From Ruminococcus bicirculans (ex Wegman et al. 2014) (GTDB lineage Bacteria; Bacillota; Clostridia; Oscillospirales; Ruminococcaceae): a stretch of DNA of 64,000 nucleotides. The stretch spans positions 1,674,001 to 1,738,000 of the forward strand of contig NZ_HF545616.1 in NCBI RefSeq assembly GCF_000723465.1. Reading direction: 5' to 3'. A model generated the notes under the pieces. It was given only the letters and a program-made list of their open reading frames with translations, did not search any database and had not been told where the DNA came from. Positions 4,901 to 64,000 of this stretch are shown here, piece after piece (the first letter of the stretch is position 1; every line of letters starts with the position of its first letter). Position numbers and translations under genes: made by a program.

Positions 4901-5239
4901 ATGGCGAAGAGGAACACATACACACCGGAGTACAAGGCAAAAATCGTAATAGAAATACTGGAGGGAGAGCAGACGATCAGCGAGATAGCAAGTCGTGAAG
5001 GAATCAACGTCAATCAGCTGAAAAATTGGAAAAAGGAATTTCTTGAGAATGCATCCCGTGCCTTTAATGGTTCAAAATCAGAAAAGGAAGCAAAAAGAGC
5101 AGCTGAGAACTCAAAAAAGCGGGAAGAAAAGCTTATGCAGAAAATCGGTCACCTGACAGTTCAGGTGGACTGGCTCAAAAAAAAATCTGAAGAAGTGCTC
5201 GGACCTGACTGGAAGGAAAAGTCTGGTTATGAAGAATGA
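4901..5239 (+). CDS. IS3-family transposase OrfA (helix-turn-helix)
   Basis: 112 residues. The N-terminus (YTPEYKAKIVIEILEGEQ... SEIASREGINVNQLKNWKKE) is the standard IS3/IS911 OrfA helix-turn-helix that binds the element ends. A helical region with leucine-zipper character follows (KREEKLMQKIGHLTVQVDWL). GGAGG lies 11 bp before the ATG. The gene overlaps orfB by 11 bp. A run of nine A residues at 5177-5185 lies upstream of the overlap, a possible slippage site. However, orfB is in the +1 frame relative to orfA, so the usual -1 frameshift would not join them. Confidence 0.93.
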   Translation: MAKRNTYTPEYKAKIVIEILEGEQTISEIASREGINVNQLKNWKKEFLENASRAFNGSKSEKEAKRAAENSKKREEKLMQKIGHLTVQVDWLKKKSEEVLGPDWKEKSGYEE

Positions 5240-6062
5240 TAGGCTGAACATTAAGGAACAGTGTGAACTGCTTGAAATCAACCGCACTTCGATGTACTAT
5301 CAGCCTGTTGAACCGGCAGAAAAAGCCTTGGAGCGTGAGGAATACATCAAATCACGTATTGACTACTGGCACACAAAATTCTGCTACATTGGTCATCGGA
5401 AAATCAAAGAAAAGCTTGTACAGGAAGACGGGATTGCAATCGGCAGAAAGCTTGTCAGACGTTATATGGCGGAAATGAATATCTGTCCGGTTTATCCGAA
5501 ATCCAATCTTTCAAAGCCCGGAAAGAACAGTTTAAAATTTCCGTATCTGCTGAAAAATCTAAAAATTGACCGACCAAATCAGGTATGGTCAATTGACATC
5601 ACCTATATCAAAATGGGGCGTAGCCATATGTATCTGACAGCGATTATTGATTGGTACAGCCGTTTTATCGTGGGCTATGAATTGTCTGATACGCTGGATA
5701 CTGCACCGGTTTTAGCAGCAGTCACAAATGCCATGGAACAATACGGCAATCCTGAAATTATCAATTCTGATCAGGGCAGCCAGTTTACAAGCAATGACTA
5801 TATTGAATTTCTGAAAGCGAAGAATATCCGCCAGAGTATGGACGGAAAAGCTAGATGGGTGGATAATGTGGTAATTGAACGCTGGTTTCGCAGCTTGAAA
5901 ACGGAGTTGATTTATATCAATGAATACAGCAATCCCAGAGAGCTGCGCCAGCAGATTGGTAGTTACATCAAGGATTACAACAACGAAAGACCCCATCAGG
6001 CGCTTGGCTACAAGTTGCCTGTGCAGGTTTACCAAGCCAAGTCTGTATGCAATGCTGCATAA
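5229..6062 (+). CDS. IS3-family transposase OrfB (DDE integrase)
   Basis: 277 residues. An HTH_21-like N-terminus (SRIDYWHTKFCYIGHRKIKE) is followed by an rve integrase core with the catalytic acids in SIDITYIKM, INSDQGSQFTS and ERWFRSLKTELIY, then the usual NNERPHQALGY C-terminus. It performs strand cutting and joining during transposition. It appears intact, and the copy at 48833-49666 encodes an identical protein. It has its own ATG inside the orfA 3' end, so it may be translated by coupling rather than as a fusion. Confidence 0.95.
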   Translation: MKNDRLNIKEQCELLEINRTSMYYQPVEPAEKALEREEYIKSRIDYWHTKFCYIGHRKIKEKLVQEDGIAIGRKLVRRYMAEMNICPVYPKSNLSKPGKNSLKFPYLLKNLKIDRPNQVWSIDITYIKMGRSHMYLTAIIDWYSRFIVGYELSDTLDTAPVLAAVTNAMEQYGNPEIINSDQGSQFTSNDYIEFLKAKNIRQSMDGKARWVDNVVIERWFRSLKTELIYINEYSNPRELRQQIGSYIKDYNNERPHQALGYKLPVQVYQAKSVCNAA

Positions 6063-57088: not shown

Positions 57089-57448
57089 GGGGGTGTAAAG
57101 GTTTCGACGGGGGTTTTGAAGCACGATAAGCGAGTAGAGGAGCGCACACTCTTTAAACGGCGTACGTTTTAAAATTAGACGACAACGATAATTTTGAATT
57201 AGCTGCTGCTTAAGTCAGCGCTCGTCTTGCCTTAGAGTACCACGGCTTTGGTAAAGGCGTCGATCAGTGGTGAACGTTACAAAGCGACGGCTGTAGCCTT
57301 GTGATGTATCACAGCCTACCAAACACACAGGCGTGTCTGTTTGCCTTTGTGCAAGGGAACGGGAGTTTTCCGCAATAACAGAATACACTCGTAGAAGTTC
57401 GTGGGGATAGGCTTTCGGACAGGAGTTCGATTCTCCTCACCTCCACCA
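57089..57448 (+). ncRNA. ssrA: Transfer-messenger RNA (tmRNA)
   Basis: 360 nt. The 5' GGGGGTG pairs with CACCTCC before the 3' ACCA end, and TTCGACGGGG and GTTCGATTCTCC mark the tRNA-like half. The tag frame ends with codons for DNDNFELAAA and a TAA at 57211-57213. The upstream resume codon cannot be fixed by eye. It rescues stalled ribosomes together with SmpB. A prophage begins just beyond its 3' end, a common integration site. Confidence 0.96.
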
Positions 57449-57545: not shown

Positions 57546-58364
57546 TTACTTGATAATTTTGATTACCTGTCCTGCATAGATAAGATTAGCATTTTTTATG
57601 TTGTTGTCCTTAACGATTTTTGCGACTGTCGTTTTGTATCTTGCGGCTATCGCCGAAAGAGTATCACCCTTTTTGACTGTATATCTAGTTACTGTCTTTT
57701 TAGGTGTGTCTTTTTTCGGCTCCGGCGGTGTAACATTTTTCTTATAGCCGTTAAGCCCTGCGGCTTTTATGATTGACGGGAAATTGACTTTTGCAGTATC
57801 GAGGTCAACGCTGCCTGTAACGCCGTTTACTCTCCCTGTAAAGCTGTGCTGGTGCATTTTATGCGCTATTGACGGGGCTCGGGTGATATTCGCACACCAT
57901 ATTGCATAGCGACTTCTGATAGCTGCCGACACTTTGGCGGTGAGAAAAGCTTCGTAAGAATAGAGCATACAATAATATCCCGCCGCCTCAACAACGCTAA
58001 TAAAAGCTTTGATGATGTCGTCACGCAGTCCGGGCATATTATATTGTGCAGCTTCTTCTATGTCGAGCGCAACAGGCATAGAGAATGGGCATTTAGACTT
58101 GATGAGATTGACAAAGCCTGTTGCTTCTCTCTTCGCTGCCTCTACTGTATCTGCATACATATAGTGATAGAAACCTATGTTAAGTCCTGCGGCCTTTGCG
58201 TTTGCATAATTACGCTCGAACTTTTTGTCAATCTGCCTAGGATAAGACATTATGTCGCCGTAGCTCGATCGTATCATTACAAAGTTTATGCCGCTTGCTT
58301 TGAGCTTCTTTGTATCAACGTTTCCGTTATGCTGAGATACGTCTACGCCTTTGTATGTAGCCAT
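57546..58364 (-). CDS. Phage endolysin: GH25 lysozyme with LysM domain
   Basis: 272 residues. GH25 catalytic domain at 1-205 ([43 protein letters not shown] with the catalytic acids), a Pro/Lys linker ([12 protein letters not shown]), and one LysM at about 225-271 ([20 protein letters not shown]). It cleaves peptidoglycan glycan chains at the end of the lytic cycle. No signal peptide, so export depends on the holin encoded upstream. Confidence 0.95.
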
Positions 58365-58366
58365 TT

Positions 58367-58546
58367 TTATTCCTCCATTTTCTTGTAGTAGGACTTGATC
58401 TTATTGACCTTGTCGGCGTTATCTGTCAAGAGCTTTTTAACGTCGGTAAGGTCAATTTCGTAAACGTCCGAAATCTCATCATATGTCATACCGAACGCAA
58501 AGCTCTTGAATATTTCATTTTTTTCCTGCTCTGAAATGTTTGTCAT
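58367..58546 (-). CDS. Small phage protein between holin and endolysin
   Basis: 59 residues. Its ATG overlaps the holin stop by one base (TAATG), and its stop lies 2 bp before the endolysin start. Reads [18 protein letters not shown]... [18 protein letters not shown], helix-turn-helix-like. Found by reading the gap; function unknown, presumably part of the lysis cassette. Confidence 0.7.
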
Positions 58547-58992
58547 TACTGTTCTCCTCCTTGGCTTTCTTCAACTGTTATTTTTAAACGGTGTACGATT
58601 TTAACGAGAAATGACGGCAACGGCACGCCGAGAACGGAAAGGTTTTCGAGAATGCTTATACACTCATTGATGATGAGCCATACTGTGACGATTACGCCGA
58701 AATAATAGCTAAATCCTATATCAATTCCCACCGAGGACAGCCCCTCACTTATGAGCCAGTCCGTGACACCCGCTACGCACACTACAAGGATATAGCAGAG
58801 CTTTTTGACAGCTCCGACAATCCCTATTCGGCTACTTAGGTCACTCTTATACCACGCTTTCGCAAGCCCGCTCAGATAGTCTATAATCATAACGGCGATC
58901 AATATAAGCAGCGGTATAGCTATAACGCCGAAATATGCAGACAGACCGCCTAGGGCGGCGGCGACAATGCCCTTAAATACGTTTTCTTTCAT
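58546..58992 (-). CDS. Phage holin (Bacteriophage_holin_4 / toxin secretion family)
   Basis: 148 residues with three to four hydrophobic segments (GIVAAALGGLSAYFGVIAIP, LLILIAVMIIDYLSGLAKA, and VIVTVWLIINECISILENL), and a charged C-terminus. MIDYLSGLAKAWYK is typical of this holin family. It forms the membrane lesion that releases the endolysin. Lies between XkdX and the small lysis-cassette gene. Confidence 0.92.
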   Translation of the reverse strand: MKENVFKGIVAAALGGLSAYFGVIAIPLLILIAVMIIDYLSGLAKAWYKSDLSSRIGIVGAVKKLCYILVVCVAGVTDWLISEGLSSVGIDIGFSYYFGVIVTVWLIINECISILENLSVLGVPLPSFLVKIVHRLKITVEESQGGEQ

Positions 58993-59310: not shown

Positions 59311-60354
59311 CTATTCCCTCCATAGATTATAATAATATTCCTGCATACTATCTATCAGCTTATAGCAGTTCCCTTTGCTTGCGTGCGAAGCCCAGGACTT
59401 GAAACACTCGTCAACTTGTTCTCGGATCATTGCGCCACGTTCACATAATTGCACAAGCTTTGCGAGCTTGCGGCGAGCTCTCGTGACCTTTTCCGGCAAT
59501 ACACGCATTATGACCTTTCCTGTACTTGTAAGCCTAAAACTGAAACCTAAGAAGTGTATGGGCTGTTTAATCGGGAATAATTGAGTTTTCTTCTTACTAA
59601 ATTTTAGCCCTAGTTTCTCGAGTTCTTCGCCTATGTGCTCTTTGCAAAATGTCAAATATTCTTTGCTTTGATGTATAAGTATGAAATCGTCCATATAACG
59701 AACATAATACTTTATGCCTAGTTGCTCTTTAATTAAATGGTCGATGTCGTCTAATACTGCAAGCTGAATAAGCTGCGTGACTTGCGAGTCTAAGCCCATT
59801 CCTTTTGACGGGTCAACTCCTTGCGTAAAGCTGTTTATAATTCTTTCGGTTTCAGCATACGCCCAATCGTCAGAAACTCTTTTCCGAACAGCAGCGCAAG
59901 CGACGCTGTGAGGCGTAGAGCCGAAATAATCCGAAATATCACACTTAATAATATAACCGTTTAGACCCGATTTTCTATAAAATCGCTGCATATGACATTT
60001 CAATCGCTCACGGGCGAAATCTGTTCCTTTACCCTTTTGACAAGCGCAATTATCGTATATAAAAGATCTCGTTATCTGTTCTGTAAGGTAATTATCACAT
60101 AACGAACGTTGAAACACCCTGTCTTTTATTCTTGTGCTTACGATAACACGTTCTTTCGGCTCGTAGATTTTAAAAACGGTATAATCACCGATTTTGTACT
60201 TTCCGCTCATAAGCTCGTCTTTTAGTTTATAACAGTTTGTCAAGCCGTTCTTAACGAAACCCGCTGTGCTATCTTTCCACATCACATTTCTTCTGCATAC
60301 AAGCATTGCCTTATACAGATTTTCAAAGTCACATACATTCTCTTTTACTGTCAT
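59311..60354 (-). CDS. Reverse transcriptase of a diversity-generating retroelement
   Basis: 347 residues. RT palm and fingers include YIIKCDISDYFGSTPH (first catalytic Asp), GLDSQVTQLIQLAVLDDID in the primer/template grip position, and KYYVRYMDDFILIH (YxDD catalytic motif). KTQLFPIKQPIHFLGFSF follows in the thumb-proximal part. DGR enzymes are typically about 300-400 residues without extra domains, and this protein fits. It copies the template repeat RNA with errors at adenines. Located downstream of avd and the template repeat. Confidence 0.95.
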   Translation of the reverse strand: MTVKENVCDFENLYKAMLVCRRNVMWKDSTAGFVKNGLTNCYKLKDELMSGKYKIGDYTVFKIYEPKERVIVSTRIKDRVFQRSLCDNYLTEQITRSFIYDNCACQKGKGTDFARERLKCHMQRFYRKSGLNGYIIKCDISDYFGSTPHSVACAAVRKRVSDDWAYAETERIINSFTQGVDPSKGMGLDSQVTQLIQLAVLDDIDHLIKEQLGIKYYVRYMDDFILIHQSKEYLTFCKEHIGEELEKLGLKFSKKKTQLFPIKQPIHFLGFSFRLTSTGKVIMRVLPEKVTRARRKLAKLVQLCERGAMIREQVDECFKSWASHASKGNCYKLIDSMQEYYYNLWRE

Positions 60355-60511
60355 ATTATCTCTTCTACAAAACTTACGTTGTTAATAGTGATACTTACTC
60401 ATAAAGTAAATCACATCAACGTTATACTTTCACCATATCGGCTAGGATAATAGTTCCTTGTGTGATTGCATTGATTTCAGCTATTGAGCCTACTTTAAGC
60501 TAGCATTATCA

Positions 60512-60624
60512 CAATCCGGGGCGAGCCCGTTACTGTTGTTCGCATTGTTGTTGTTGATAGCTCCTGTCGGGTTGACGTTACGCACGTTGTTAGCGTTGCC
60601 GGTGTTAGGAGTACGCAGCCACCA
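60512..60624 (-). repeat. DGR template repeat (TR)
   Basis: 113 bp aligning without gaps to 61124-61236. On the coding strand the template is rich in AAC codons (reading NNVRNV, NPTGAI, NNNNANN). All 13 differences to the variable repeat are at template adenines. The GC-rich end GGGCTCGCCCCGG is common to both repeats and is a candidate for the initiation of mutagenic homing. The repeat lies between avd and the RT gene; the gap 60355-60656 holds no gene. Confidence 0.95.
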
Positions 60625-60656
60625 CAAAGCAGAAATAAAACAACTATTACCCTAAT

Positions 60657-61070
60657 TTACTTTCCGTATCTATCGTAATCGGACTTTCTCCAATTACGCA
60701 GTAACACTTGAACTTCGTTTACAAGTCTAGTCCAATACTCAATACGTTTGCTTTCTATACTGAAAACACTATATGCAATGTCAATCATACTTAGTAAGGC
60801 GTATGTTTCAGCAAGAGCTTTCGTCTGATACTGTCGCCTTAGCTGATAATCTTTCTTGTTATCATCATTAACGTAAATAGAATTGGCTGCATTAACGTTG
60901 CTACTCACATCAATGGCGCAATCAACGATTTTAGCAGTAATGCACCACCTATAACGCTTAGGAAAGTTCTTTTCATTTGAACATATCTTAATTGTATATG
61001 CGGCGAGCTCTCTCGCTTTGGTTACTACTAATAACTTGCCCTCGGTTTGTTTCGATTTTACAACTGACAT
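60657..61070 (-). CDS. avd: DGR accessory variability determinant (Avd), four-helix bundle protein
   Basis: 137 residues, basic and helical throughout, of the 23S-IVP/four-helix-bundle type (KARELAAYTIKICSNEKNFP, KRYRWCITAKIVDCAIDV, ALAETYALLSMIDIAYSVF, WTRLVNEVQVLLRNW). Avd binds the RT and template RNA. Position between target gene and TR matches known DGRs. Confidence 0.92.
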   Translation of the reverse strand: MSVVKSKQTEGKLLVVTKARELAAYTIKICSNEKNFPKRYRWCITAKIVDCAIDVSSNVNAANSIYVNDDNKKDYQLRRQYQTKALAETYALLSMIDIAYSVFSIESKRIEYWTRLVNEVQVLLRNWRKSDYDRYGK

Positions 61071-61084
61071 TGCTTTCTCCTTTC

Positions 61085-61102
61085 CGCCCTCTATCGAGGG
61101 CG
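61085..61102 (-). repeat. Hairpin just downstream of the variable repeat
   Basis: CGCCCTC and GAGGGCG form a perfect 7-bp stem around TATC. It lies 21 bp after the end of the variable repeat and just after the target gene stop. A GC-rich hairpin/cruciform at this place is known to promote target recognition in Bordetella phage DGR. It might also act as a weak terminator. Confidence 0.7.
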
Positions 61103-61110
61103 ATTATAGA

Positions 61111-62496
61111 TTAAATAATGCAACAAGCCGGGGCGAGCCCGTTACTGTTGTACGCACCGCTGTAGTTGATAGCTCCTGTCGGGTAGACGTCACGCACGTA
61201 GAGAGCGTTGCCGGTGTCAGGAGCACGCAGCCACCAATAGTACGGCGTGCCGTTACTTTGATACTTAATGCGGTTCGTGTCGTTGCCATCGTTTTTGCTC
61301 GCAAAGTCTGAGTAGTTTTTATAGTATGGGTACGCTGCACCCTCATCAACGCTATTTTCAAAATTTCCGTAAACTTCGGAACATGAAAGCAAGAATATTT
61401 TCTCCGTGCTTGTTTTAGAACCTCCACCGTCAGTAAGTGTGTTGAGCGCCGTTACTTTCGTGACCTCGCCGAGAACTGAAAGGAAATCGGGGTCTACGCC
61501 ACGCAGAAAGCCGCTTTCGGTGTCCGCCCAGGACGGCTTGCGTGAAAACTTGCTCTGCCTCGTCCACGTTCCGCCAGGAGCGGCAGAGCTGTTAAGCCTC
61601 ATTCTGAGATCACTCTCAGCCCAGTTGTTAGAGCCATAGCGAGCACGATGAATGTGATTGAGGTCTGACACGGTGCCGTCTGCCATTCCGAGCGACGTTC
61701 CCTCTGAGCCCTCCTGAACAGATACAGTTTCAATAACCGCACTAGCATTAGCATTAACATACGTCGAAACCTTTGTAGCTGATGCCTGCTGCTGATATGC
61801 CCACGGAAACATAATCTGACCCGCTGCGGGTACAGGTTTTGTGAGCGTAAACTGGTATGTTTTACCGCCACCGTTTTCCACGTCATAGCCTGCAGGCAAT
61901 GTTATGTTATATGTTCCTGCCACAAGTTCTTCACGGGCATAGTATATTGCTTCCGTGCTGTCGAACTGAATGTTCTGATAGAGATCGTGGAGCTGCAAAG
62001 TTAGGGAGTGCTCAAACTGACTATCGGCGGGCGTGTCGTGATCTATGCCGATGATGTCAAACACAAGCTTGTTTGTCGTTTCGTGCACAAGCACCTCGTC
62101 GCCTGCTTTCGGTGTACCCGTTACTGTGATACCATACGCTGAAAGCTGTACAGGCTCACCATTGAAATGCCACTCAGCGCCGTTATATGAAAACTCATAC
62201 TCCCCGTTGTGTGATGTACCTACCGCCGCTATGAACGTGTCTGCGGCTACTGTGGCAGCGGTAATGCCGCTTGTGCCCTCTGTGTTGCCGACGGTTGCAG
62301 TTATCGCAGTTTCTTTTTCGGCTATGATCTGATCGCCGATAGCAAACACCTTGTCTGCCATACCCGCTCTTACGATAGCCTGCACGTCTGCAAAGCTGTT
62401 GATTTTAAGACCGCCCGTGTTCGCTGCAATCGCAGCTACCGAACGAGCTATGCCCTGCATAGTGCTGTCTCTTACGAGGTCTATTGTTTCTGCCAT
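61111..62496 (-). CDS. DGR target protein: phage tail/receptor-binding protein with C-terminal variable domain
   Basis: 461 residues. The N-terminal part (1-60) is Ala-rich, as in tail fibre attachments. A mid-region of beta-rich sequence with repeats of TATVGNTEGTSG type follows (about 60-230). The C-terminal DUF6273-like/C-type-lectin fold (about 290-461) includes WAESDLRMRLN, FLLSCSEVYG, YYWWLRAPDTG and ends in the variable repeat (last about 44 codons). Likely displayed at the phage tail tip and binds the host surface. Eleven residues differ from the template-encoded version, mostly Asn to Tyr, Asp or Ser. Confidence 0.92.
   Translation of the reverse strand: MAETIDLVRDSTMQGIARSVAAIAANTGGLKINSFADVQAIVRAGMADKVFAIGDQIIAEKETAITATVGNTEGTSGITAATVAADTFIAAVGTSHNGEYEFSYNGAEWHFNGEPVQLSAYGITVTGTPKAGDEVLVHETTNKLVFDIIGIDHDTPADSQFEHSLTLQLHDLYQNIQFDSTEAIYYAREELVAGTYNITLPAGYDVENGGGKTYQFTLTKPVPAAGQIMFPWAYQQQASATKVSTYVNANASAVIETVSVQEGSEGTSLGMADGTVSDLNHIHRARYGSNNWAESDLRMRLNSSAAPGGTWTRQSKFSRKPSWADTESGFLRGVDPDFLSVLGEVTKVTALNTLTDGGGSKTSTEKIFLLSCSEVYGNFENSVDEGAAYPYYKNYSDFASKNDGNDTNRIKYQSNGTPYYWWLRAPDTGNALYVRDVYPTGAINYSGAYNSNGLAPACCII
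61124..61236 (-). repeat. DGR variable repeat (VR)
   Basis: Aligned to the template repeat with offset 612 and no gap. Thirteen substitutions, all at adenines of the template on the coding strand, none elsewhere in the 113 bp. This is direct sequence evidence of past mutagenic retrohoming. Confidence 0.96.
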
Positions 62497-62911: not shown

Positions 62912-63592
62912 TTATAACGTTTCACATACGGCATAAGGCTTGCCGTCGGTTATTCTGAGTTTAACAACGAACGTTGCTCCAGTATCATTATTTTTAAGAG
63001 CTATGCCGTCGATTACATCACCGACGCTCTCAGCAGCCTTATTAGCCCGCTCAGTTGCGGCGTTAGCAGTAGCTATTACTGTATTGACCGCTCCTGTAAG
63101 GCTTTCTCTCGCCGTGTCTGCATTATCGGCGGCGGAGTTCGCCTTGCTTGCGGCAGCTGAGGCTATATCAACAGCTTTGCTCGCTTCATTCAAAGCCTCA
63201 GCAAGCGCCTTATACTCATTCGTAGACGTTATCTCGTCGTCTGATACTGCCGAGCGCTGCACCGCAATATAGAAATACTGCGTTGTAAGTAGTGAGCTTT
63301 CTTTGTACAGAGATATTTCAGCGATAACATAGCCCTCAACTGCTAGTATCTGTTCTGTGAGTTCTGCTACGATTACGTTATTTTCAATAGTAGCGTTGTT
63401 GAATACTGCTTTCTTATCTGCCTTAACCGCTCTTATTCGTGCTGTAATACCGCTGTCAAGCGTATACGGCTTGCCGCTATCTGTTATCGTAATATTAACG
63501 TAGCGGCTGCTGCTGTCACCTTGCTTGGCGAATACTATCGGCGGAGCTGTCGAACGTGAAACATCAAGCGATATGCTTGTTGAACTTTTCAT
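62912..63592 (-). CDS. BppU-family phage baseplate upper protein
   Basis: 226 residues. The N-terminal about 120 residues form the BppU beta domain (FAKQGDSSSRYVNITITDSGKPY, ITARIRAVKADKKAVFN, VIVAELTEQILAVEGYVIAEISLY). A helical Ala/Asn-rich stalk follows (EASKAVDIASAAASKANSAA), and a short end domain. It links baseplate and receptor-binding protein, which fits the DGR target encoded downstream. Confidence 0.88.
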   Translation of the reverse strand: MKSSTSISLDVSRSTAPPIVFAKQGDSSSRYVNITITDSGKPYTLDSGITARIRAVKADKKAVFNNATIENNVIVAELTEQILAVEGYVIAEISLYKESSLLTTQYFYIAVQRSAVSDDEITSTNEYKALAEALNEASKAVDIASAAASKANSAADNADTARESLTGAVNTVIATANAATERANKAAESVGDVIDGIALKNNDTGATFVVKLRITDGKPYAVCETL

Positions 63593-63597
63593 ATAAG

Positions 63598-63969
63598 TTA
63601 GCCCTCCTCGATCATAAAAGAAAGTGCGTCAATAGCGCTAAGAGGCATTTCTCTTTCTGCTATATCAGATAGCTTTATTGTTGATATTTCCACCTCGGAC
63701 AGCTCTAAGGCTATTTCGTTTATAGCCTCGCATATCTCATTGAATGCTTTCGGGTCGTCTTTGGCTGATACACTTGTTTTGCCGCCCGCCTTATTCTTTA
63801 TGATCTCATCACGAGATAAAACGAACGGCTCTAATGCCCGCTCTATCGCAATTTTATTTTTGATAATAGCGTATGATGTTTTGGACGGCAATTCGATTTT
63901 CTGCTTGATTAACGTTTTGATCTGCTCTAGCTTCTGCTCGAGTTCAGCGTTTGATTTCTTGATTTTCAT
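63598..63969 (-). CDS. Phage structural/tail-region protein, uncharacterised
   Basis: 123 residues, helical at both ends (NAELEQKLEQIKTLIKQKIEL... EICEAINEIALELSEVEI). It lies between BppU and the upstream phage gene, with close spacing in both directions. No family recognised. Confidence 0.6.
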   Translation of the reverse strand: MKIKKSNAELEQKLEQIKTLIKQKIELPSKTSYAIIKNKIAIERALEPFVLSRDEIIKNKAGGKTSVSAKDDPKAFNEICEAINEIALELSEVEISTIKLSDIAEREMPLSAIDALSFMIEEG

Positions 63970-63970
63970 A

Positions 63971-64000
63971 TTATCCCGCCTTTTCGATATTGATTATTCT
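63971..64000 (-). CDS. C-terminal end of an upstream phage gene (partial at window edge)
   Basis: Nine codons and a TAA on the minus strand (RIINIEKAG), open to the window edge. Its stop is 1 bp before the next phage ATG, as expected in the compact late operon. Identity not determinable. Confidence 0.5.
   Translation of the reverse strand, partial: RIINIEKAG

Follow-up and report, generated by a model that had tools for sequence, protein, structure and literature searches.

Introduction

Among the diversity-generating retroelements (DGRs) described in phages, that of BPP-1 shows the order attachment site (resembling the end of a tRNA-His gene), lysis genes, reverse transcriptase (RT) gene brt, template repeat (TR), avd and mtd, with one variable repeat (VR) annotated in the 8 kb examined. 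Phage DGRs with two targets have also been published already, namely those of nd4, nd12, Lelie, CP11 and Quimbyvirus. The subject of this report is an Avd-type DGR of a prophage adjoining the tmRNA gene of Ruminococcus bicirculans, found in a stretch of 64,000 nucleotides (contig NZ_HF545616.1, positions 1,674,001 to 1,738,000, forward strand), hereafter called the window. From one template, this DGR very probably works on two targets: the gene of a probable tail protein (target 1, with repeat VR1) and a small gene beyond the window (target 2, with repeat VR2). In the open-licence papers covered by our searches we met no description of the window phage.

The element resembles that of BPP-1 in the order of its parts, in the presence of Avd, in the RT clade, in the position of the cassette beside lysis genes and an RNA gene as attachment site, and in the 14-nt GC-rich region and the hairpin with a GRNA loop after the VR, as described in PMC3240598. 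It differs in having a second, remote target, in the DUF6273 domain of target 1, and in the hairpin of VR2, which lies inside coding sequence. Phages nd4 and nd12, by the account in PMC10743442, likewise have one TR and two VRs, and their small target 2, consisting of DUF6273 only, is a homologue of the VR2 protein; however, by the criterion used here no hairpin follows their VR2. Compared by description, the Faecalibacterium phages Lelie and CP11 combine a large and a small DUF6273 target with one DGR (as presented in PMC11792537). Quimbyvirus, as reported in PMC8008677, has one target next to its structural genes and another, distant and judged non-structural, but the latter stands on the opposite strand among defence-related genes, the RT is in three overlapping frames and the hosts are Bacteroides. 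Beyond this remark on Quimbyvirus, a class of second targets in the early region was not met in the open-licence papers searched.

Results

Template and variable repeats

TR and VR1 can be aligned over 114 nt without gaps, with 13 mismatches (six A>G, five A>T and two A>C), not one of which falls at a TR base other than A, although only 34 of the 114 TR bases are adenines. Under base-blind substitution, such an outcome would have a probability of (34/114)^13, i.e. ~1.5e-7 (hand arithmetic from the counts), and a chance repeat was ruled out by the 13/13 mismatches at A. In the frame of the target, TR reads WWLRTPNTGNANNVRNVNPTGAINNNNANNSNGLAPDC; 32 of its 34 adenines occupy codon positions 1 and 2, and 11 residues are changed in VR1.

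One of the mismatches calls for a separate reading. Position 60515 is, in TR, an A just outside the 14-nt GC core, on its 3' side. In ten chosen relatives the equivalent position holds A in 10/10 TRs and C in 17/17 VR rows, and in both near-identical phages compared below it is C in VR1 and T in VR2. The base after the GC core is thus where the initiation of mutagenic homing sequence of VR (IMH) is non-identical to its counterpart in TR (IMH*). Judging from this pattern, the A>C at 60515 is probably a fixed IMH*/IMH difference, not a product of mutagenesis. Since 60515 would be fixed, 12 substitutions in 10 residues are left as likely mutagenesis products. An earlier note on this DNA, made from its letters alone, had reported 13 adenine-only substitutions over 113 bp, changing 11 residues of a C-type-lectin-like domain, in an intact VR reading frame. 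The intact frame and both counts hold, the alignment is one base longer, and as a record of mutation the counts come down to 12 substitutions and 10 residues.

A search with TR in its own genome returned three places: TR itself, VR1 and a stretch at G000:C1:1754162-1754256 (labels of this kind are our own), matching at 83% over 95 nt. A 180-aa open reading frame (ORF) carries this stretch, VR2, at its 3' end; the distance is 19.5 kb to TR and 16 kb to the edge of the window. When VR2 and TR were compared over 94 nt, 17/17 mismatches were at adenines, one of them being the 60515 position.

Comparison of near-identical phages

Two deposited contigs allowed the change at both targets to be followed. 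MT835664 is 99.2% identical to the window prophage over 22.5 kb, with 0.63% of the positions outside VR1 differing. Within VR1, 17 of 114 positions differ, 16 of them at TR-A sites and one at a C/T marker (excess in VR1, P 1.8e-18). MT839794 holds the VR2 gene and is 98.3% identical to the prophage over the relevant 2.5-kb piece. All 20 differences in the 543 nt of this gene are in VR2, 19 at TR-A sites and one at the C/T marker, and the rest of the gene is identical.

The marker, position 60520, is a non-adenine base in the GC core: the window phage has C there in TR, VR1 and VR2, while T is found in MT835664 (TR and VR1) and in MT839794 (VR2). A change shared by TR, VR1 and VR2 is what would be expected if copying starts from TR, and the concordance at 60520 would fit unidirectional TR-to-VR transfer, the ancestral base being either C or T. 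As MT835664 and MT839794 are separate contigs, this three-way argument assumes that they come from one phage or from sibling phages. With a change at 60520 and none at 60515, copying would have its 3' edge somewhere between the two; an edge there, where the GC core ends on its 3' side, accords with the (GC)14 region of BPP-1 as described in PMC3240598.

Read from these alignments, both targets have been rewritten since the near-identical phages parted. A dead cassette was ruled out by this change in VR1 and VR2, and the activity that the earlier note had deduced is borne out by VR1 in MT835664. That note had also proposed comparing VRs among relatives. The comparison confirmed change at adenine sites, while a clean adenine-only record is lacking in some relatives, whose VR1 shows 15/19 (L082) or 14/17 (L003) mismatches at A.

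Hairpins downstream of the variable repeats

Phage DGR hairpins, as described by Guo 2011 (PMC3240598), have a GC-rich stem of 7-10 bp and a GRNA loop and stand 4-34 bp from the VR. The hairpin after VR1 (Table 1) is of this phage type. The one after VR2, TGCGCC-GACA-GGCGCA, has a 6-bp stem, stands 25 bp after the repeat and lies within the coding sequence, where it encodes LRRQAQ; in-gene hairpins have already been reported for nanoarchaeal DGRs in PMC4372165.

To place these structures, a GC-rich hairpin with a 4-nt loop within 70 bp downstream of the repeat was taken as the criterion and compared with single-base shuffles. Repeat pairs with biased mismatches were found in 118/162 sequences (a few biased at G or C), and the hairpin count was made on 99 sets, no two sharing a TR segment and each with 6 or more mismatches biased to A (to T for the opposite strand), L001 being left out because it repeats the window. 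A hairpin followed the VR in 30/99 sets and the TR in 0/99, compared with 0.8% of the shuffles, and its loop was GRNA in 16 of the 30, compared with 0.04% of the shuffles.

Among 16 remote VR ends examined, only three had a hairpin by this criterion: that of the window phage, that of G250 (TGTGCC-GACA-GGCACA, with a compensatory pair) and that of G253 (TGCGCC-GTGA-GGCGCA). G013 has a 5-bp version with loop GTCA.

The record L201 (IMGVR_UViG_2854214156; 41.8 kb, without an RT) carries an orphan VR2 gene at L201:10001-10516. Its VR2 has mismatches to the TR of the window phage at 15 A, 5 C and 2 G, and the hairpin stretch has been lost by a short deletion, with the stop codon retained. This single case of hairpin loss would match what is expected when the DGR is lost.

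The cassette and its prophage

The minus strand carries target 1, avd, TR and the RT gene, in that order, followed by the holin and lysin genes and then by the tmRNA gene, immediately downstream of which the prophage genes begin (Table 1).

Table 1. Positions of the features discussed, in window coordinates unless a locus label is given
Feature	Coordinates	Strand	Evidence or remark
tmRNA (ssrA)	57089..57448	+	prophage genes begin immediately downstream
Endolysin (GH25 + LysM), 3' of the DGR	57546..58364	-	domain/profile matches
Holin	58546..58992	-	profile matches
DGR reverse transcriptase, 347 aa, YMDD	59311..60354	-	phrog_1423, E 3.9e-90; Pfam RVT_1
TR	60511..60624	-	34 adenines; 12 AAC codons in VR frame
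IMH* discriminator adenine	60515	-	C in VR1, T in VR2; probably fixed difference
14-nt GC-rich core, TR 3' end (IMH*-like)	60516..60529	-	holds C/T marker 60520
avd, accessory variability determinant, 137 aa	60657..61070	-	phrog_3206, E 3.2e-23
Post-VR1 hairpin CGCCCTC-GATA-GAGGGCG	61085..61102	-	GRNA loop, 7-bp stem; 20 bp after VR1
Target 1, 461-aa probable tail protein, C-terminal DUF6273 ending in VR1	61111..62496	-	PF19789, E 2.3e-20
VR1	61123..61236	-	gapless alignment to TR
14-nt GC-rich core, VR1 3' end (IMH-like)	61128..61141	-	
BppU_N-domain gene upstream of target 1	62912..63592	-	domain match; PHROG 19280
VR2 gene, 180-aa ORF, VR2 at 3' end	L163:3103-3645		phrog_9958, E 1.5e-39 (unknown function)

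The closest solved structure to the RT is 8ub7_A (E 2.9e-28), which we take to be the BPP-1 RT; its 328 residues equal the length of translated BPP-1 Brt. The residues DSQ were taken as motif 4. In a tree of 51 RT rows, whose root is for drawing only, the window RT falls in a 15-row set (support 100/94), 13 rows of which, its own included, had been chosen for the TR/VR pairs at their loci. A wider 43-row set (99/97) includes BPP-1 Brt; the 8 rows outside it may themselves be of DGR type. A group II intron RT (TIGR04416, scoring 88 bits where the cut-off is 300) and an antiviral RT (Drt3a, 56 against 200) were rejected on these scores and on tree placement. Avd has weaker matches, under the curated cut-offs, to NF033474 (E 4.3e-7) and bAvd (PF22296; E 3.2e-4), and a PDB sequence search with it gave 0 matches.

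Target 1 is likely to belong to the tail, judging mainly from a single profile, phrog_19280, that spans two genes: its N-terminal part matches the BppU_N gene, from which target 1 is separated by two small genes, and the C-terminal part of target 1 is also matched. The BppU_N gene upstream likewise associates it with tail proteins, holin and endolysin genes follow downstream, and the protein may be the receptor-binding tail tip. It also matches phrog_10993, 'Hoc-like head decoration'. Its predicted fold (pLDDT, the model's confidence score, 86.7) had 9qa6 as the sole PDB match at E <= 0.001, and a PDB sequence search gave one match only (E 0.3). DUF6273 is read as a C-type lectin in the account of PMC10743442.

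As the earlier note had it, the four parts are all present in the classic order on one strand, and the RT search that it proposed groups the enzyme with RTs of TR/VR-bearing loci (100/94). Its C-type-lectin-like tail protein is retained as a probable tail protein, by inference from PHROG 19280, while our own fold search did not confirm the lectin. The DGR, described there as complete, is so with respect to the cassette, but not as a whole system, whose second, remote target lies beyond the window; neither that second VR nor the post-VR1 hairpin had been mentioned.

The length of the prophage is estimated at ~32 kb because a 539-aa ORF, presumably a large serine recombinase, is found at L163:11192-12811, which corresponds to ~88.2-89.8 kb on the window scale. 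No second copy of the tmRNA 3' end (attachment site) turned up, which leaves the ends of the prophage approximate. The alignment with MT835664, a contig deposited as phage, starts at ~57325; as this is inside the tmRNA gene, the contig may include host sequence. The same alignment shows raised divergence in two adjoining 500-bp bins at 71500-72500 on the window scale, beyond the window (65 + 19 mismatches), and in a second block at 63000-64000 (22 mismatches in two bins), both of which perhaps reflect recombination.

The second target and its relatives

Besides phrog_9958, the VR2 protein has a partial match to DUF6273; no signal peptide was seen by eye (no predictor was run). Its gene has as neighbours genes for a replication initiation protein (phrog_3584), a ParB-like protein, a transcription regulator, an HNH protein and, by a weak match, a small terminase subunit. 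A plasmid search with the region gave no match. The VR2 protein is presumably made early. In the MT839794 relative, the place of the ParB-like gene of the window prophage is taken by a 458-aa ORF (L199:2533-3909) that presumably encodes a PAPS-reductase-like enzyme. A model of the L201 relative of the VR2 protein (pLDDT 84.5) has strands at residues 135-140 and 146-149 in the VR part, and 9qa6 was again its sole PDB match at E <= 0.001; fold matches in BFVD are mainly DUF6273 phage proteins.

Matches to this gene, whose family is here called V2, were found in 16 of 199 genomes, of which, besides our own, G013, G023, G048, G171, G172 and G176 were followed. A further 16 of 49 viral records matched (G205, G206, G211 and G229 followed, the rest being mostly RT-side repeats), as did 10 of 31 genomes (G250, G251, G253 and G255 followed) and 8 phage records. 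Among the last, nd4, nd12 and FP_Brigit (twice) were tested and MT839794 was compared with our own copy, the remaining three being contigs without an RT. These searches covered 49 of 80 viral records in which a related RT occurs and 32 of the 80 genome loci (in the 31 genomes).

With the TR beside each RT as query, V2-family genes were found to carry a VR in 13/14 non-redundant sets, a count restricted to sets in which the V2 match was long and an RT was available. The 13 are the window phage, G013, G048, G172, G176, G171, nd12, nd4, FP_Brigit, G250, G255, G251 and G253, with V2 of G013 shared with record G200/L202, that of G255 with G206, two identical copies in G048, and separate contigs in G171. 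The exception is G229/L030, in which the V2-like stretch contains a TGA and shows no VR corresponding to its TR. Six V2 contigs with no RT in the stretch stood outside this first test; of these, L202 was later found to have a VR, and another, L201, is a record lacking an RT. Our own VR2 protein and 10/10 homologues scanned matched phrog_9958.

The distance from RT to V2 ranges from adjacent (G176) to ~50 kb (G253). In G176 two V2-family VRs, one of them with mismatches at 14 A, 1 T and 1 G, adjoin the RT, so a remote position is not a constant trait of the family. The distant VR of G253 is on the opposite strand and has 6/8 mismatches at A, and non-A mismatches were also noted in the remote VRs of nd4 (1), G013 (2) and FP_Brigit (2). 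Replication or early genes surround V2 in 5/8 neighbourhoods (our own, G013, G048, nd4 and FP_Brigit); in FP_Brigit there are helix-turn-helix (HTH) genes on one side and exonuclease, RecT and replisome organiser genes on the other. The neighbourhoods of G250 (a peptidase-like preceding gene) and G172 (a neighbour resembling a transglycosylase/lytic tail fibre) are mixed, and in nd12 the neighbours are annotated as hypothetical and the protein is fused to DUF3310.

Some loci showed further arrangements. L084 and L085 have, at ~5000-5400, a TR/VR pair whose members are only ~300 bp apart, with the RT ~2.6 kb further downstream. The repeat adjoining the RT of L085 instead matches a remote V2-family gene, and these loci possibly have two templates. 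In G048:C1, equal RT scores and equal VR counts near 1059000 and 1629500 suggest that the chromosome may hold two copies of one DGR prophage. L006, taken with L237:744-847, has three VRs per TR, with 11/12, 16/16 and 10/11 mismatches at A. Remote VRs also occur in L006 and L012.

Discussion

The sequences show adenine bias in both VRs, intact frames, a hairpin after each repeat, change at both targets and a template base that changed in concert. On these grounds, mutagenic homing has almost certainly acted at both VR1 and VR2, and it is very probable that the phage has a functional DGR of the Avd type, in which one template serves two targets. By inference from BPP-1, an RNA derived from TR would be reverse transcribed by an RT-Avd complex, with errors at adenines, and the cDNA would replace the homologous stretches of VR1, in the probable tail-tip gene, and of VR2, in the 180-aa gene 19.5 kb away. 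In each target the site would be marked by the GC-rich 3' core and, 20-25 bp downstream, by a hairpin with a GNNA loop (GRNA in the window phage). Homing in E. coli depends on the orientation of the target relative to replication, as reported in PMC12875486, and for that reason the two targets of the window phage may change at different rates.

Several observations weigh against this interpretation. The stem of the VR2 hairpin is one pair under the described 7-10 bp, and 69/99 TR/VR sets have no hairpin by our strict criterion, a count that includes near-identical relatives. The contigs MT835664 and MT839794, both unannotated and from human faecal clones (Mexico), are separate, and an RT of at least 99% identity was found in 1/113 phage records, namely MT835664. 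In G002:C44 (L226), from the same genus, the RT, TR, GC core and an identical GATA hairpin are kept, yet the VR body has no homology to TR except in about the last 21 nt; the target there seems to have been swapped or lost. Frozen copies also seem to exist, as L201, with its mismatches at C and G besides those at A and with neither RT nor hairpin, indicates, so that VR2 of the window phage might be a passive relic of an old VR duplication, no longer a homing target. This is very improbable in view of its 17/17 mismatches at A, of the confinement of 20/20 differences from MT839794 to VR2, including the shared C/T marker, and of the hairpin kept in G250 with a compensatory pair. It is extremely improbable that the differences in VR1 and VR2 were acquired by recombination with phages bearing diverged alleles instead of by reverse transcription: the bins at 71500-72500, with 65 + 19 mismatches, would suit such exchange, but the differences in the repeats end at the repeat edge and hit template adenines, which recombination does not explain.

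If one template does serve two targets, two roles can be considered for the second protein. It may be an Mtd-like receptor-binding or adhesion protein of the virion that is encoded away from the tail, both targets then serving adsorption, a role that Baykov et al. proposed for the second target in nd4 and nd12 (as presented in PMC10743442) and one that we regard as a serious candidate, if somewhat short of probable. The VR2 protein shares the DUF6273 family with target 1, and 9qa6 is the sole PDB match (E <= 0.001) of both models; over the VR part, 6/10 homologues match phrog_10993, 'Hoc-like head decoration'; BFVD matches include 'Receptor Binding Protein' and 'Tail sheath protein', which are deposited names only; and in G176 two V2-family proteins are the RT-proximal VR carriers. 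However, no tail-attachment domain was seen in the VR2 protein with Pfam and PHROGs, the neighbours of its gene are of the replication/early type in 5/8 neighbourhoods, and the nd12 homologue is fused to DUF3310. We propose, tentatively and as a rather unlikely option, that a widespread subclass of phage DGRs diversifies, besides the tail, a small early-region protein (phrog_9958, DUF6273) from the same template, and that this protein works as a hypervariable binder within infected cells or lysogens, directed for example at host defences or competing phages. If this were true, a single template would tune both entry and takeover.

The cassette is of an ordinary DGR kind, while the natural evidence for homing at two targets is unusually good: the near-identical phages amount to a natural experiment in which retrohoming can be read at two targets, with the 3' edge of copying bracketed. 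Remote targets such as VR2 can escape large surveys. Interest centres on what the small second target does, and the recurrence of a VR in a small protein, often encoded among replication genes, makes it a testable question why diversification in phages should reach a protein without the look of a tail protein.

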